DNA of 64,000 nt from Zymomonas mobilis (GTDB lineage Bacteria; Pseudomonadota; Alphaproteobacteria; Sphingomonadales; Sphingomonadaceae): NCBI RefSeq assembly GCF_006715975.1, contig NZ_VFOF01000001.1:1312001-1376000 (forward strand), read 5' to 3'. Positions 22,783 through 26,856 of the stretch are shown in pieces. A program made the translations under genes and the position numbers. The notes below the pieces were generated by a model, which saw nothing but the letters and a program-made list of their open reading frames with translations, had not been told where the DNA came from and searched no databases. Numbering within the stretch: position 1 is the stretch's first letter; each line of letters begins with the position of its first letter.

Positions 22783-22877
22783 AAATCTCGGTTAGCTTTT
22801 CCGTTTTTGAAGTAGCGATTTAATCGTTAAATTTTGAGAAAAAGAAAGGAAATGAGGGGTTTCTGCGACTAGCTACA
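22783..22877. other. spacer between rhlE and the nepR promoter region
   Basis: Nothing recognised. The whole gap from rhlE to nepR is about 350 nt. The rest is taken up by the EcfG-type promoter candidate and a long 5' leader of nepR that holds no ORF. Confidence 0.4.
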
Positions 22878-22902
22878 GGAACAAACCCTATAATATTTTG
22901 TT
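22878..22902 (+). promoter_or_regulatory. EcfG-type promoter candidate upstream of nepR
   Basis: GGAAC (22878-22882), a 17-nt spacer, then GTT (22900-22902). This fits the GGAAC-N16/17-(c)GTT pattern known for the alphaproteobacterial general stress sigma factor EcfG. It would give a leader of over 200 nt before nepR. Autoregulation of nepR by its own sigma factor is the known arrangement in the order. Confidence 0.55.
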
Positions 22903-23136
22903 TCTTTTATGAAGTCTGGCGTTTTCTAGAACGAAGCATCAGTCAAAAATTTGCAAAACGGATAAAAGGGAAAAGCTTTTCAGAGGTAAACCGCATTACA
23001 AAATTCTTATCAATTTCGCCATTTTATGGTGGAAATTTTATAATGATTCTGGACAGTGTGGATAGATCTTATAATAAGAAAAATGAAATACCTCGGTGAA
23101 ACTAAACCATATCCGACCCATTATAAAATAACTAAG

Positions 23137-23349
23137 ATGAATGGCAGCATGACAGCACATAACCATAAAAGGCCAGTATCCCAAGAATTACCGGCTTCTT
23201 CCGGAAATGCCGCACATGCTGGTGAAACGGCAAAGCCAGCGGAAGACCGGAAGAACGCTATCGGTTTTGCTTTGCGAAATGTCTATCAGCAGACGGTCGA
23301 GGAGGCCGTGCCTGATGATATTCTCGCCCTTCTTGCAAAACTAAACTAA
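23137..23349 (+). CDS. nepR: anti-sigma factor NepR
   Basis: 70 aa (66 if the ATG at 23149 is used; neither has a clear ribosome binding site). A disordered polar N-terminus precedes the NepR core IGFALRNVYQQTVEEAVPDD and LLAKLN, which matches the two helices that grip EcfG or its mimic PhyR. In the known system NepR sequesters EcfG until phosphorylated PhyR binds NepR. Unusually, neither ecfG nor phyR is adjacent; the next gene, 26 nt downstream, is a sensor-like protein. The frame is open to 23056 but without further similarity. Confidence 0.85.
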   Translation: MNGSMTAHNHKRPVSQELPASSGNAAHAGETAKPAEDRKNAIGFALRNVYQQTVEEAVPDDILALLAKLN

Positions 23350-23375
23350 TTGGTCGCGAGACGGATCGGCGCTTT

Positions 23376-25034
23376 ATGAAGGCATTTTACCCAAAGAAGC
23401 CTTCAAAGACCTTCCATAAAAAGCAGCTTTTAACCCGACGGTTATTTCTGCTCTTTGTGACTATGCCTACCTGGTTCAGGATGCTGGTCGTTTTAAGTCT
23501 GGCGCAGCTTCCTCCCAGTTTCATTGCCCTTGGCGCTTTTATCGCGTCGTCACATCAATATCGGCTCAATCATCAGAAAGAAGCGCAGCTTGTCGCTACG
23601 GAAAGCGCGCGCACGCTCGATGATTCGGTCGATATTTTGGCTTATGACGTCAGAAATATTCTTGATGAAGAAGGCAGCTATGATTTTTCCGATATCGGGG
23701 AATGTTCGCTGTTGATTAACCATATGCAAAGCCTTGGCTTTGTACCGGTTGATTATGCCTTGATGGATGTATCCGGCCATTTGCTTTGTAAGAGCGCCAA
23801 TTTCAAAGTGACGACGGCTTTGGCCTTGCCTTTTAAACCAGTGAGCGAGAATAATTTTTATAATGTCGATCTTTTGGGCAATGAAGGTCAGCTACAATTT
23901 TCTTTTCTGGGCGGGCATTATCCGCTCTCAAAATATATCGTTCTTGGACAGATAGGTCGGGAATCCTTGCTCAAAATTATTGAGCGTAAGGTTGTTTCCG
24001 ATGGTTCAGCCTTGTTTTTGGCGCAGAAGACGCGCTTTTTGCCGCTTATTTCGCCCAAGAAGCCTTTGTTAAAGCAAAGTCACCCTGTCGTTGTACCAAC
24101 CTTCGATAATGCCGTTAACCTGATTTACGATAACAACCTGCCGCCTTTTCGGAAAGTTGACCTGTTATTTGTTCTATTGCCGGTATTGATCTGGTTTATG
24201 ACAGCAACGATCGGATGGATCGTTGTGCATTATATGCTGTTGCGCCCATTACGGCGCACCCAGCGCGCTATCGTCGATTATGGTAAAACGGGCGATATCC
24301 AAATGGTAAAGCCCGCCTCGATTGGAGCGGCCAGAGAAATCAGACAGGTAAGTAAGGCATTTTATCATGTGGCGGTTCGGTTGGCGGCGCATGAACAGGC
24401 TTTGCGGAAAGCATTGCAGCATCAAAAAATGTTGACCCGAGAAGTGCATCATCGGGTTAAAAATAACCTTCAGGTGGTTTCTAGCCTGTTGAGCATCCAT
24501 AGCCGGAGAGCCGAAACTGCCAAAGAAAAATCTGCCTATGCGACTATCCAAAGGCGGGTCAATGCTTTGGCGATTGTTCAGCGCCAATATTATAACGAGC
24601 TGGATAAAGGCCAAGGGCTGGACTTGTCTCTATTAATCAAAGAATTGGTCAATGGGTTGCAAACAAGCTTGCAGTCTTTCGAAAAAAATTTCCAGATCGA
24701 GACAGAAATAGATCAGGTTTTTGTTCCACTCGAAAAAGCAATGCCGATTGCCTTTATTCTGGTTGAGATTGTCGATTTTTCTTTGGCGGTTGATCCGCTG
24801 TTACCGATTGTCATCATATTGCGCCGCCATAGAGCCGAGCTAGAAAATACGCCCGATCATGCTGGGTTGGAAATTAGAGCGGAAGCGTTGACACAGCTTT
24901 CTTCTCGTAAGGGTAATGAAGTTATCCGGCGGATTATTAGCGCCTTTGGCCGACAATTAGGCGGCAAATCGGTAGAGAGAGAAGATGAAGGATATTATTA
25001 TTACGATATAGATGTCTTGTCGGATCAAGGCTGA
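23376..25034 (+). CDS. PhyP-like membrane sensor, HisKA_2 with degenerate ATPase domain
   Basis: 552 aa. Two membrane spans (about 32-55 and 262-288) enclose a ~200-residue periplasmic sensor region. HAMP-like and coiled-coil sequence follows, then a HisKA_2 phosphotransfer helix TREVHHRVKNNLQVVSSLLS. The C-terminal ATPase region lacks the usual N-box asparagine (EIVDFSLAVDP where ELVTNALKHA is expected) and has no DNGxGxP box. It is therefore probably unable to autophosphorylate. The combination and the place next to nepR resemble PhyP of sphingomonads, described as a negative regulator of PhyR; that function is inferred here. Confidence 0.75.
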   Translation: MKAFYPKKPSKTFHKKQLLTRRLFLLFVTMPTWFRMLVVLSLAQLPPSFIALGAFIASSHQYRLNHQKEAQLVATESARTLDDSVDILAYDVRNILDEEGSYDFSDIGECSLLINHMQSLGFVPVDYALMDVSGHLLCKSANFKVTTALALPFKPVSENNFYNVDLLGNEGQLQFSFLGGHYPLSKYIVLGQIGRESLLKIIERKVVSDGSALFLAQKTRFLPLISPKKPLLKQSHPVVVPTFDNAVNLIYDNNLPPFRKVDLLFVLLPVLIWFMTATIGWIVVHYMLLRPLRRTQRAIVDYGKTGDIQMVKPASIGAAREIRQVSKAFYHVAVRLAAHEQALRKALQHQKMLTREVHHRVKNNLQVVSSLLSIHSRRAETAKEKSAYATIQRRVNALAIVQRQYYNELDKGQGLDLSLLIKELVNGLQTSLQSFEKNFQIETEIDQVFVPLEKAMPIAFILVEIVDFSLAVDPLLPIVIILRRHRAELENTPDHAGLEIRAEALTQLSSRKGNEVIRRIISAFGRQLGGKSVEREDEGYYYYDIDVLSDQG

Positions 25035-25163
25035 ATAAGTAGGGTTTTACGCTTTTAGCGTGGCCGCAAATAGAGGCTTTTTACGCAAGAACAAAGCGGT
25101 TTCAGAATGTTTCCAAGCGTTAAATTTCATTTTTAAAAATAAATGAAAAAAATTCAGAAGGTT

Positions 25164-25188
25164 GGAACTTTCTTTCAGACGGTCGGTT
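25164..25188 (+). promoter_or_regulatory. EcfG-type promoter candidate upstream of the small RNA
   Basis: GGAAC (25164-25168), 17-nt spacer, GTT (25186-25188): the same elements and spacing as the candidate upstream of nepR. No ORF follows it closely. A terminator-like hairpin begins about 60 nt downstream. Confidence 0.55.
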
Positions 25189-25195
25189 TTATTGG

Positions 25196-25301
25196 ACAAG
25201 ATGGTCTGTAGGCTTATCCCCCTTAGCCTGACTATTCTTACATTTTATGATCCGGAATGTTTCCCTCCTCCCCCCTCACTAACATTCCGGGTCATTTTTT
25301 T
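25196..25301 (+). ncRNA. candidate stress-induced small RNA with C-rich loops
   Basis: About 105 nt between the EcfG-type promoter and a U-run. Hairpin 1 is AGGCT/AGCCT (25210-25229) with loop TATCCCCCTT. Hairpin 2 is the terminator, TGATCCGGAATGT (25248-25260) with ACATTCCGGGTCA (25282-25294), followed by seven T. Its loop contains CCCTCCTCCCCCC, an anti-Shine-Dalgarno sequence. C-rich loops of this kind occur in alphaproteobacterial stress sRNAs such as the CcsR/CCUCCUCCC group and GsrN. The start site is guessed from the promoter; expression is not shown. Confidence 0.55.
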
Positions 25302-25424
25302 ATGTCTCTTTATTCTTCTGTGGTTCATATAAATTCGGTAAAAGCATTTTGCGATGAAGGCGATTTCTTCATGTACTAAAAAGCTCTAAAACAAGGTGCG
25401 GATGATACACCGGATGGGGGAACA

Positions 25425-25559
25425 ATGCGTATTTTGAAAAACTTTTTAATGGCTTCGGCTGTTTTGGCATTAGCGGCTTGCAACACGATGCAAGGATTTG
25501 GGCAGGATCTTTCCTCTGCCGGACAATCGATGTCGAATAGTGCAGAAAGAAACAAATAA
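25425..25559 (+). CDS. entericidin-like small lipoprotein
   Basis: 44 aa. The signal peptide RILKNFLMASAVLALAAC ends in a lipobox (LAAC), with mature residues CNTMQGFGQDLSSAGQSMSN. This is the EcnA/EcnB pattern (C-N-T-x-x-G-x-G-x-D). GGGGGAA lies just before ATG. These cell-envelope lipoproteins are often under general stress control; here the gene follows the stress locus, but no EcfG-type promoter is seen directly in front of it. Confidence 0.85.
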   Translation: MRILKNFLMASAVLALAACNTMQGFGQDLSSAGQSMSNSAERNK

Positions 25560-25563
25560 CAGA

Positions 25564-25598
25564 AAAGGTCGCTATCCCGATGGAAGCGGCCTTTTTTT
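25564..25598 (+). terminator. terminator of the entericidin gene
   Basis: AAGGTCGCT pairs with AGCGGCCTT (one G-T) around an 11-nt loop, followed by seven T. Confidence 0.75.
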
Positions 25599-26067
25599 AT
25601 GACCTTTTAGGGTTGAGTTGCGATTGCACGAGCAAGCGCCGTTATTTCAGGTTTCAAAGGCGGTTTTAATCCGTCATGAGGAAGCCTCACAAAGAATTAG
25701 CCTTAACTTTGTAAAAGCTCGGCATAAGCGGCAATCGCTGTTTCAGTTATATAATGCGTTTTCTGACACAAAGCCGAGTGTGTTCGTTCAGCGTTCAGAT
25801 TCTTTAGAGCTACACGGCCTTACTTCTTCGCCCCGATACACGATCACATAAAAATAACAGCATCCAATGAGTTGCATTTGAATCGGCTATGCAGAGCGTA
25901 AGCGTGACATTGCGAGCGATTGAGATTGTTTTGAGAGTATTGCCTCTTATACAATAATAGCCCCATAGAGGCTGTCTATAGGGCTATTGAATAGAGGTTA
26001 TCTCAAAATATCATGAGGCCTGTCGCCCTATTTTAGGGGATGTGCCGATATTTTGAAATTCAGATGA
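25599..26067. other. intergenic region with a possible tat terminator hairpin
   Basis: About 470 nt. The hairpin AATAGCCC/GGGCTATT (25956-25988, with an inner ATAGA/TCTAT) lies downstream of tatC on the minus strand and may end that transcript, but a clean U-run is missing. A 77-codon TTG-start frame at 25618 has no ribosome binding site and is not believed. Confidence 0.4.
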
Positions 26068-26856
26068 TTATTCTTCGGTTAAGGCGAGTTCTTTACTTTT
26101 TTGTCGCCGTTTTTCGCCAACGAGCATCGCGAGCAGTGCCATTTCATAAAGCAGGATAAGCGGAACGCCGAGCAACAGCTGAGAAACGATATCTGGCGGT
26201 GTTAAAACCGCTGCAACCGCAACAGCGGCTACGATAGCATAACGCCTGCCCGCGACAAGTTGTTTGCGGGTGACGAAACCAGAGCGTTCCAAAAGCAGCA
26301 GGAAGAGCGGTAACAGGAAAGCGACACCAAAGCCGAAGATGAATTTTGTAACAAAATTCAGATAATTGCCGACAGCGGGTAAAGCCGTTTGTTGCACGCC
26401 GCCGATATTGCCTTGATATCCCAACAGGAAATGAAGCGCGATAGGCATGGCAACATAATAAGCCATAGACGCCCCAAGCAAAAACAAAAGCGGCGTCATA
26501 ATCAGAAAAGGCAGGAATGCTTTTTTCTCATTAGCGTAAAGCCCCGGGGCAATGAAGCGCCAGATCTGCATCGCGACAATAGGGAAAGCGAGCATGATAG
26601 CCGCGAAAAAAGCGACTTTAATATCGACGAAAAAGGCTTCGAAAATATCAGTATAGATCAAGCGGCCTTGCCCTGCCCGAAGCAAAGGTTGCACCAGAAA
26701 AGCAAAGATAGAACGGGAAAAATGGAGGCAAAGCAGGAAGGCTATTCCCAAGGCAACCAAGCTGATCAGTAGTCTTTTACGTAATTCAAGCAGATGATCG
26801 AGCAGCGGGGCTGCGCTTTCATCGACTTCGTTGGGGGTATCATCCGTCTCGCTCAT
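26068..26856 (-). CDS. tatC: Sec-independent translocase protein TatC
   Basis: 262 aa, six membrane helices. It is the receptor that binds twin-arginine signal peptides together with TatB. Conserved features: HLLELRKRLLISL at the N-terminus, the FFVDIKVAFFAAIMLAFPI region, and APGLYANEKKAFLPF with the essential cytoplasmic-loop glutamate. Its start overlaps the tatB stop by 4 nt (ATGA). It is last of tatA-tatB-tatC. Confidence 0.96.
   Translation of the reverse strand: MSETDDTPNEVDESAAPLLDHLLELRKRLLISLVALGIAFLLCLHFSRSIFAFLVQPLLRAGQGRLIYTDIFEAFFVDIKVAFFAAIMLAFPIVAMQIWRFIAPGLYANEKKAFLPFLIMTPLLFLLGASMAYYVAMPIALHFLLGYQGNIGGVQQTALPAVGNYLNFVTKFIFGFGVAFLLPLFLLLLERSGFVTRKQLVAGRRYAIVAAVAVAAVLTPPDIVSQLLLGVPLILLYEMALLAMLVGEKRRQKSKELALTEE

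Follow-up and report, generated by a model that had tools for sequence, protein, structure and literature searches.

A conserved family of candidate EcfG-driven small RNAs with C-rich loops beside the nepR-phyT genes of Zymomonas mobilis and other Sphingomonadaceae

Does the gap downstream of the phyT-like gene of Zymomonas mobilis encode a small RNA which takes part in the general stress response? An earlier note on the window (the whole stretch of 64,000 nucleotides analysed here) had pointed to a promoter, two hairpins with C-rich loops and a U-run at 25164–25301, all of which we could confirm in the sequence. An EcfG-type promoter, GGAAC-N17-GTT, is located on the forward strand at 25164–25188 (GGAAC at 25164–25168, GTT at 25186–25188, spacer of 17 nt) and is present in all four Zymomonas genomes. 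It would drive a small RNA of about 108 nt on the same strand (25194–25301), the start being estimated from promoter spacing and the end from the U-run. Folding of the RNA from 25190 predicts two hairpins, with seven U behind the second. Hairpin 1 (25200–25236, forward strand) has an inner stem, 25210–25214 paired with 25225–25229, and the loop UAUCCCCCUU (25215–25224). Hairpin 2, with the features of an intrinsic terminator (25247–25301, forward strand), consists of a stem (25247–25261 with 25281–25295), the C-rich loop UCCCUCCUCCCCCCUCACU (25262–25280) and the U-run (25295–25301). The minimum free energy was −35.2 kcal/mol as compared with a mean of −19.6 for shuffled sequences (z = −5.1; none of 200 shuffles was as good).

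The promoter pattern GGAAC-N17-GTT occurs five times in the window versus 1.55 expected, more often than in every one of 100 shuffles. Genome-wide, GGAAC-N16..18-GTT is found at 129 sites versus 330 for the reversed control; as it is not over-represented there, the promoter motif alone is weak evidence. The case for the putative element is made by conservation and not by the promoter motif alone. A search with Rfam 15 at the gathering score revealed three tRNAs in the window and nothing else. No Rfam match was obtained over 25100–25420 at E ≤ 1, nor at the gathering score in eight homologous loci.

Immediately upstream of the element, a gene at 23376–25034 (forward strand) encodes a phyT/phyP-like HisKA_2/HWE protein (PF07568 and PF07536). 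It had been called PhyP-like, a name now superseded by PhyT, a phosphotransferase, in the relevant passages of PMC5898713; the HisKA_2/HWE protein, in which no HATPase domain was detected at E ≤ 0.001, matches the description of PhyT given there. It is preceded by nepR, the gene for the anti-sigma factor (listed ORF 23056–23349, forward strand; PF18557, E = 7.6e-8), the true start of which is probably the ATG at 23138 or 23150. A second GGAAC-N17-GTT lies upstream of nepR at 22878–22902 on the forward strand, and it is also found upstream of nepR in both other Zymomonas loci checked (L055, L056). Downstream of the element follows ecn (25425–25559, forward strand), which encodes an entericidin-like lipoprotein (PF08085, E = 2.7e-8). 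Its ribosome-binding site contains GGGGG at 25416–25420, the sole G5 run on the forward strand of 22801–25600, and GGGGGA precedes the ecn ATG in three of the four Zymomonas genomes, the exception being G109. The ORF at 26068–26856 on the reverse strand, which we take to be tatC, served as syntenic marker and was traced in relatives by tblastn.

The element had been placed inside the general stress locus. This holds for nepR and phyT, which adjoin it, but phyR and the gene for an EcfG-like sigma factor are located about 172 kb away in this genome (G000:C1:1,508,759–1,509,913, G000 being the genome of the window). The phyR-ecfG region contains one GGAAC-N16..18-GTT, about 2.8 kb from phyR and within another ORF, and none adjoining the gene pair. 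The gene order in relatives is ecfG(−) phyR(−), nepR(+) phyT(+) [promoter-sRNA](+) ecn(+) tatC(−) tatB(−). Among 160 oriented loci, many of them truncated, tblastn detected PhyT in 136, TatC in 131, PhyR in 112, EcfG in 76 and NepR in 34; a motif search of the 160 found ecn in 101 and NepR in 106. In the other sphingomonad loci read, the phyR-ecfG pair stands together with nepR-phyT-sRNA; in Zymomonas it is separate, and by this comparison Zymomonas has lost the phyR-ecfG neighbourhood and retained the rest of the locus.

The element was found in all four Zymomonas genomes. The promoter boxes and loop 1 are kept, G024 having one additional C in this loop, and of loop 2 the stretch CCCCCUCACU is retained. 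Three stem pairs are altered on both sides and still paired among these genomes; the compensatory changes include alignment columns 61–97 and 56–102 of hairpin 2. The second loop had been described as complementary to ribosome-binding sites. A C-run is conserved in both loops, but the exact anti-Shine-Dalgarno string is not: the loop reads CCCUCCCCC in G109, and UCCCCCC-like second loops are found in many other genera.

A nucleotide search (BLAST) of 149 genomes of the family with the Zymomonas DNA gave no convincing relative beyond the genus. At E ≤ 1, 34 of these genomes matched, all non-Zymomonas ones weakly, and several matches at query segment 44–59 resemble one conserved coding stretch. 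A covariance model built from the four Zymomonas RNAs alone (R1) detected full-length relatives in other genera; 37 of 397 genomes matched at E ≤ 1, including the four of Zymomonas. The promoter was present upstream in 15 of the 26 non-Zymomonas R1 loci inspected and absent in 11. A second model, R2, was built from the 15 promoter-bearing loci and three Zymomonas sequences; the 11 promoter-less loci and L059 were left out. As this training set was chosen by promoter, only matches outside it were used as evidence. R2 had matches at E ≤ 0.01 in 160 of the 397 genomes of Sphingomonadaceae and in 48 of 96 genera, and 144 of the 160 (counted from the table) matched at E ≤ 1e-6; the E-values of R1 and R2 are rough.

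Across 385 genomes of the class, R2 matched ten. Two of these matches are strong, and both belong to Sphingomonadaceae; the other eight, weak and from outside the family, were not counted as members, the EcfG promoter being found in none of the eight. Two of the weak matches, L112 (G619) and L113 (G516), adjoin additional short hairpins whose loops are C-rich (CUCCUCCCC-like). Neither has an EcfG promoter, and as judged by eye their surroundings resemble the multi-hairpin anti-Shine-Dalgarno RNAs of Rhizobiales. The exact core pattern was found in at least 120 stretches of named genomes. The titles among the matches listed belong to Sphingomonadales genera (Sphingomonas, Sphingomicrobium, Sphingosinicella, Stakelama and Allosphingosinicella are among them) or to unplaced sphingomonad or alphaproteobacterial MAGs. 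Some genomes contain a second R2 match. The two fetched, L151 (G216) and L153 (G012), each have their own GGAAC..GTT promoter, and no stress-locus markers were found at either.

As the promoter is not part of the covariance model, it provides an independent check on matches outside the training set. G[GC]AAC-N16..18-GTT was present upstream of 20 of 21 further top R2 matches, lying 28–33 nt ahead of the model start in each of the 20; the 21 remained from 24 new loci after three re-hits of training genomes. The sole miss, L091, is a truncated locus in which the expected promoter position was unread. Another 40 matches were fetched from 38 genomes, which were picked to span genera and are not a random sample. 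With a pattern one base looser than for the 21, the promoter was found in 36 of them; L150 and L156 have near-consensus forms, and L129 and L133 have none. In named loci the promoter was present in 117 of 119, at one of two adjacent distances, while the background in the same loci was 175 of 181,941 5-nt windows (about 0.001 per window). The spacing agrees with the sphingomonad EcfG motifs as worded in the published sections concerned, GGAAC-N16-CGTT (PMC7083833) and GGAAC-N17-20-GTT (PMC6599016). In GC-rich genomes, inspection by eye often shows A/T tracts (AAAAAATTTTT-like) ahead of the −35 box of the sRNA promoter. The locus sets overlap partly (for example L130 and L167; 99 of 106 nepR leaders are distinct), so that the counts for promoter, synteny and nepR are not fully independent. 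Conservation of promoter and loops in related genomes, set beforehand as a test that could refute the proposal, was observed in four of four Zymomonas genomes and far beyond the genus.

The predicted structure was analysed with 60 matches, 59 of them distinct and 57 non-Zymomonas (L129 and L133 were left out). In the 59 distinct sequences, 97.3% of stem cells were paired, and changes on both sides occurred at all 20 pairs. Double-change cells numbered 178 versus 37.6 in shuffles and at most 40 with the partner slid; the alignment was fitted to the model and leans towards the structure, shuffles and slides being nonetheless far off. In the helix homologous to hairpin 1, 98.3% of cells were paired, with both-side changes at all seven pairs, and in that homologous to hairpin 2, 96.4%. 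The C-runs of both loops are nearly invariant and among the most conserved alignment columns (1.9–2.0 bits).

The earlier note had taken the element for a stress-controlled post-transcriptional regulator. Conserved promoter, paired stems, loop C-runs and locus, as observed in the sequences, support this reading, and we consider it likely that the element encodes an EcfG-dependent, trans-acting small RNA of the general stress response which acts by base pairing. We infer transcription and its EcfG dependence, base pairing, a target and the direction of the effect along the following lines. Upon stress, PhyR would free EcfG from NepR. EcfG would then transcribe the RNA from GGAAC-N17-GTT, and transcription would end at hairpin 2. 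The C-runs in the loops would base-pair with G-runs at mRNA leaders or ribosome-binding sites and alter translation, as GsrN does in Caulobacter.

Which mRNAs might be paired? In loci anchored at the NepR motif, two bins, located at −150 and −100, contained runs of five or more G (G5+) in 51% and 30% of loci, as compared with a median of 1.6% over 112 sense-strand bins. These two bins at the ribosome-binding region of nepR are the only ones of the 112 that stand out. On the opposite strand, the C-runs of the sRNA gene itself dominate, and G5+ occurs in 17% of loci at the presumed phyR start region. A run of four or more G (G4+) at the nepR ribosome-binding region is present in 103 of 105 sRNA-bearing loci versus 11 of 24 loci without a detected sRNA; where the NepR motif pattern gave no match, the match position served as anchor (five of the 24), and one of the 24 falls short of the family cut-off. 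In a genus-spanning set (20 loci from 17 genera), the frequency was 18 of 20 for G4+ (versus 11 of 24; Fisher p = 0.003) and 10 of 20 for G5+ (versus 4 of 24; p = 0.025), related genomes not being independent and phylogeny confounding this comparison. Background levels of G4+ are similar in both groups (21% and 18%, counted in windows of 104 nt). Presence of the sRNA is thus associated with a G-run in the ribosome-binding site of nepR, the anti-sigma factor gene.

The nepR runs stand in front of a TTG or GTG start, an example being AGGGGGACGAGAGG-TTG. Starts were called as TTG in 51, GTG in 38 and ATG in 13 of 102 cases by a caller which favours G-rich sites. Its results are biased for this reason (a median of 3.5% of background windows were as strong, and 57 of 100 loci were within 5%), and the NepR-anchored bins were relied on instead. 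In the nepR leaders L119–L278, a TTG or GTG start seems mostly to stand behind a run of four to six G, an unusual ribosome-binding site.

These data suggest that the sRNA may repress nepR, the best-supported direct target in many Sphingomonadaceae. Pairing of the RNA with the G-run ribosome-binding region would lower NepR and lead to a stronger or longer stress response. That nepR is a target in many Sphingomonadaceae is put forward tentatively. The same reserve applies to its consequence, a positive feedback loop in which the RNA reinforces the PhyR-NepR-EcfG switch and the unusual nepR G-run has been kept because of the pairing, to which we give somewhat less than an even chance. For Zymomonas itself the nepR target does not hold, because nepR there lacks the G-run in the three of four genomes examined: no G4+ run was found in the nepR leader of the window, and in L055 and L056 the 250 nt that precede the NepR motif were also free of one. 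Within the locus, ecn with its GGGGG ribosome-binding site would be the first candidate there. As 9-mer complements of loop 1 in the stress loci showed no pile-up at nepR, the pairing would rest on the G-run itself.

Other candidates were sought among mRNAs outside the locus. Matches of the katG type were found at 29 loci in 26 of 30 sRNA-bearing genomes. In the 200 nt before the match, G5+ occurred in 5 of 29 loci versus 37 of 348 control stretches, which is no clear enrichment, and three of the five runs seem to lie at or within the coding start; katG as a conserved target is not supported. Complements of loop 1 of Zymomonas (AAGGGGGATAAG, at most one mismatch) were found at 44 places in the four genomes together versus 45 for the reversed control, and at 16 versus 6 in G109 alone. 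A 12-nt complement before an ATG (G000:C1:918325, and also in G024) looked like a chance match and was rejected, the ORF in G024 (L402) comprising just 23 residues. Duplex energies, which ignore the folding of the sRNA, were not used.

The sRNA might be real and EcfG-driven and yet act on other mRNAs, the nepR G-run being merely a strong ribosome-binding site. We rate this variant at about even. It would account for the retention of the sRNA in Zymomonas, where nepR has no G-run in the genomes examined. In G000, moreover, GGGGGA stands 2–8 nt before an ATG 64 times versus 29 for the reversed pattern, so that many mRNAs could pair with the sRNA. A match to G-rich ribosome-binding sites is to be expected of any C-run. 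ORFs which start behind GGGGGA in both G000 and G024 include ones presumed to be guaB, pstB, anmK and the genes for a purine-type permease and a TonB-type receptor. What speaks against action on other mRNAs alone is that just the nepR ribosome-binding bins are conspicuous in the anchored analysis and that the G-run tracks the presence of the sRNA.

An unlikely alternative to a free sRNA is that the element forms the 5′ leader or attenuator of ecn, with partial read-through of hairpin 2 from the EcfG promoter. It would fit that ecn lies some 120 nt further on in the same orientation and that many relatives show this order, but hairpin 2, followed by its U-run, resembles a strong terminator. Furthermore, ecn was not found in several loci, where tatC is directly next (for example L159, L176 and L178), and in other genera ecn has its own GGAAC-N16..17-ATT-like element as judged by eye. 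The ecn leaders of many sphingomonads (L063, L170, L188 and others) show an upstream GGAAC of their own followed by a CATT-like −10 box. The comparison suggests that ecn may be EcfG-driven too in many sphingomonads.

It is very improbable that the element serves to terminate phyT, or to bind a protein or a further RNA, the promoter match being fortuitous. It does follow phyT directly, and hairpin 2 is terminator-shaped; a terminator, however, needs no promoter, which is found at a near-fixed distance in 90–98% of the further matches, and no additional conserved hairpin in which the C-run hardly varies. The second copies L151 and L153, which lack stress-locus markers, carry the promoter as well. 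A small protein gene, finally, is next to impossible: the region had been described as free of ORFs and does contain a TTG ORF of 56 residues, open in G000 at 25162–25332 on the forward strand, but in the other Zymomonas genomes its frame is shifted by indels, a stop interrupts it in G109 and the stems are still paired, so that there is probably no protein gene.

We return to the trans-acting, base-pairing sRNA and its relation to known RNAs. The earlier note had compared it with GsrN of Caulobacter crescentus, an RNA of about 100 nt driven by sigma-T, the 5′ loop of which contains six C and pairs with G-tracts, including one in the katG leader (PMC5869019). According to the passages on GsrN in that paper, the RNA co-purified with nepR mRNA, with a predicted site GGGGGGCG; it is processed to a stable 5′ isoform, and the full-length RNA is stabilised by Hfq. 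In the survey reported there, candidates beyond Caulobacteraceae come from rhizobia and bradyrhizobia, and no apparent gsrN-like gene was seen in the out-group Erythrobacter litoralis (PMC5869019). Measured against those passages, the analogy is apt: both RNAs are about 100 nt long and have a promoter for the general stress sigma factor (here by sequence), an exposed C-tract loop in the 5′ part and an intrinsic terminator. Both map near ecfG, nepR and phyR, which applies to the relatives and in the window to nepR-phyT only. Unlike in GsrN, the terminator loop of the Zymomonas-type sRNA carries a second conserved C-run. A G-tract in the katG leader, the pairing site of GsrN, is not clearly enriched here; katG is a Caulobacter target and not a condition for every GsrN-like RNA. 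As to homology, R2 gave no strong match outside Sphingomonadaceae among the 385 class genomes. By analogy we infer that the sRNA may work like GsrN.

C-rich loops are also a feature of the CCUCCUCCC-motif sRNAs of Rhodobacter; a literature search for this motif together with Rhodobacter returned a Rhizobiales paper only. For Sinorhizobium meliloti, the pertinent section of PMC3927594 describes SmelA075 and SmelA099, with three and four hairpins, respectively, and CCUCCUCCC-like anti-Shine-Dalgarno loops. The sRNA of the window shares with them a C-rich anti-Shine-Dalgarno loop, and CCUCCUCCC occurs in its loop 2. It differs in having two hairpins, with CCUCCUCCC in loop 2 only, and the motif is missing in G109 and many other genera. 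In Z. mobilis itself, Zms sRNAs have been linked to ethanol stress; the parts of the reports that concern them (PMC6970203, PMC7064620) tabulate coordinates for ten sRNAs, give those of Zms1 in the text and count 679 candidate regions (PMC6970203). The sRNA of the window may possibly be identical with one of the Zms sRNAs or be listed among these 679. At the words searched, the EcfG papers on Sphingomonas melonis and Sphingopyxis granuli mention no small RNA of the regulon. No description of the sRNA was found in open-access literature at the level of PubMed Central listings and the starts of abstracts. As judged from these sequences, the sRNA family is widely conserved and, as far as the literature search reached, undescribed.

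If this reading is true, a large bacterial family has an RNA layer at the core of its general stress response. To this family belong an ethanol producer used in industry and model strains associated with plants, with well-studied PhyR, NepR, EcfG and PhyT, to which no such RNA has been linked in the literature searched. The ribosome-binding site of nepR offers a concrete and easily tested target. The findings suggest that sRNAs with C-rich loops may be a general companion of the stress locus across Alphaproteobacteria, GsrN being one case. If the nepR reading is true as well, an RNA-based positive feedback would be closed around the PhyR-NepR-EcfG switch.
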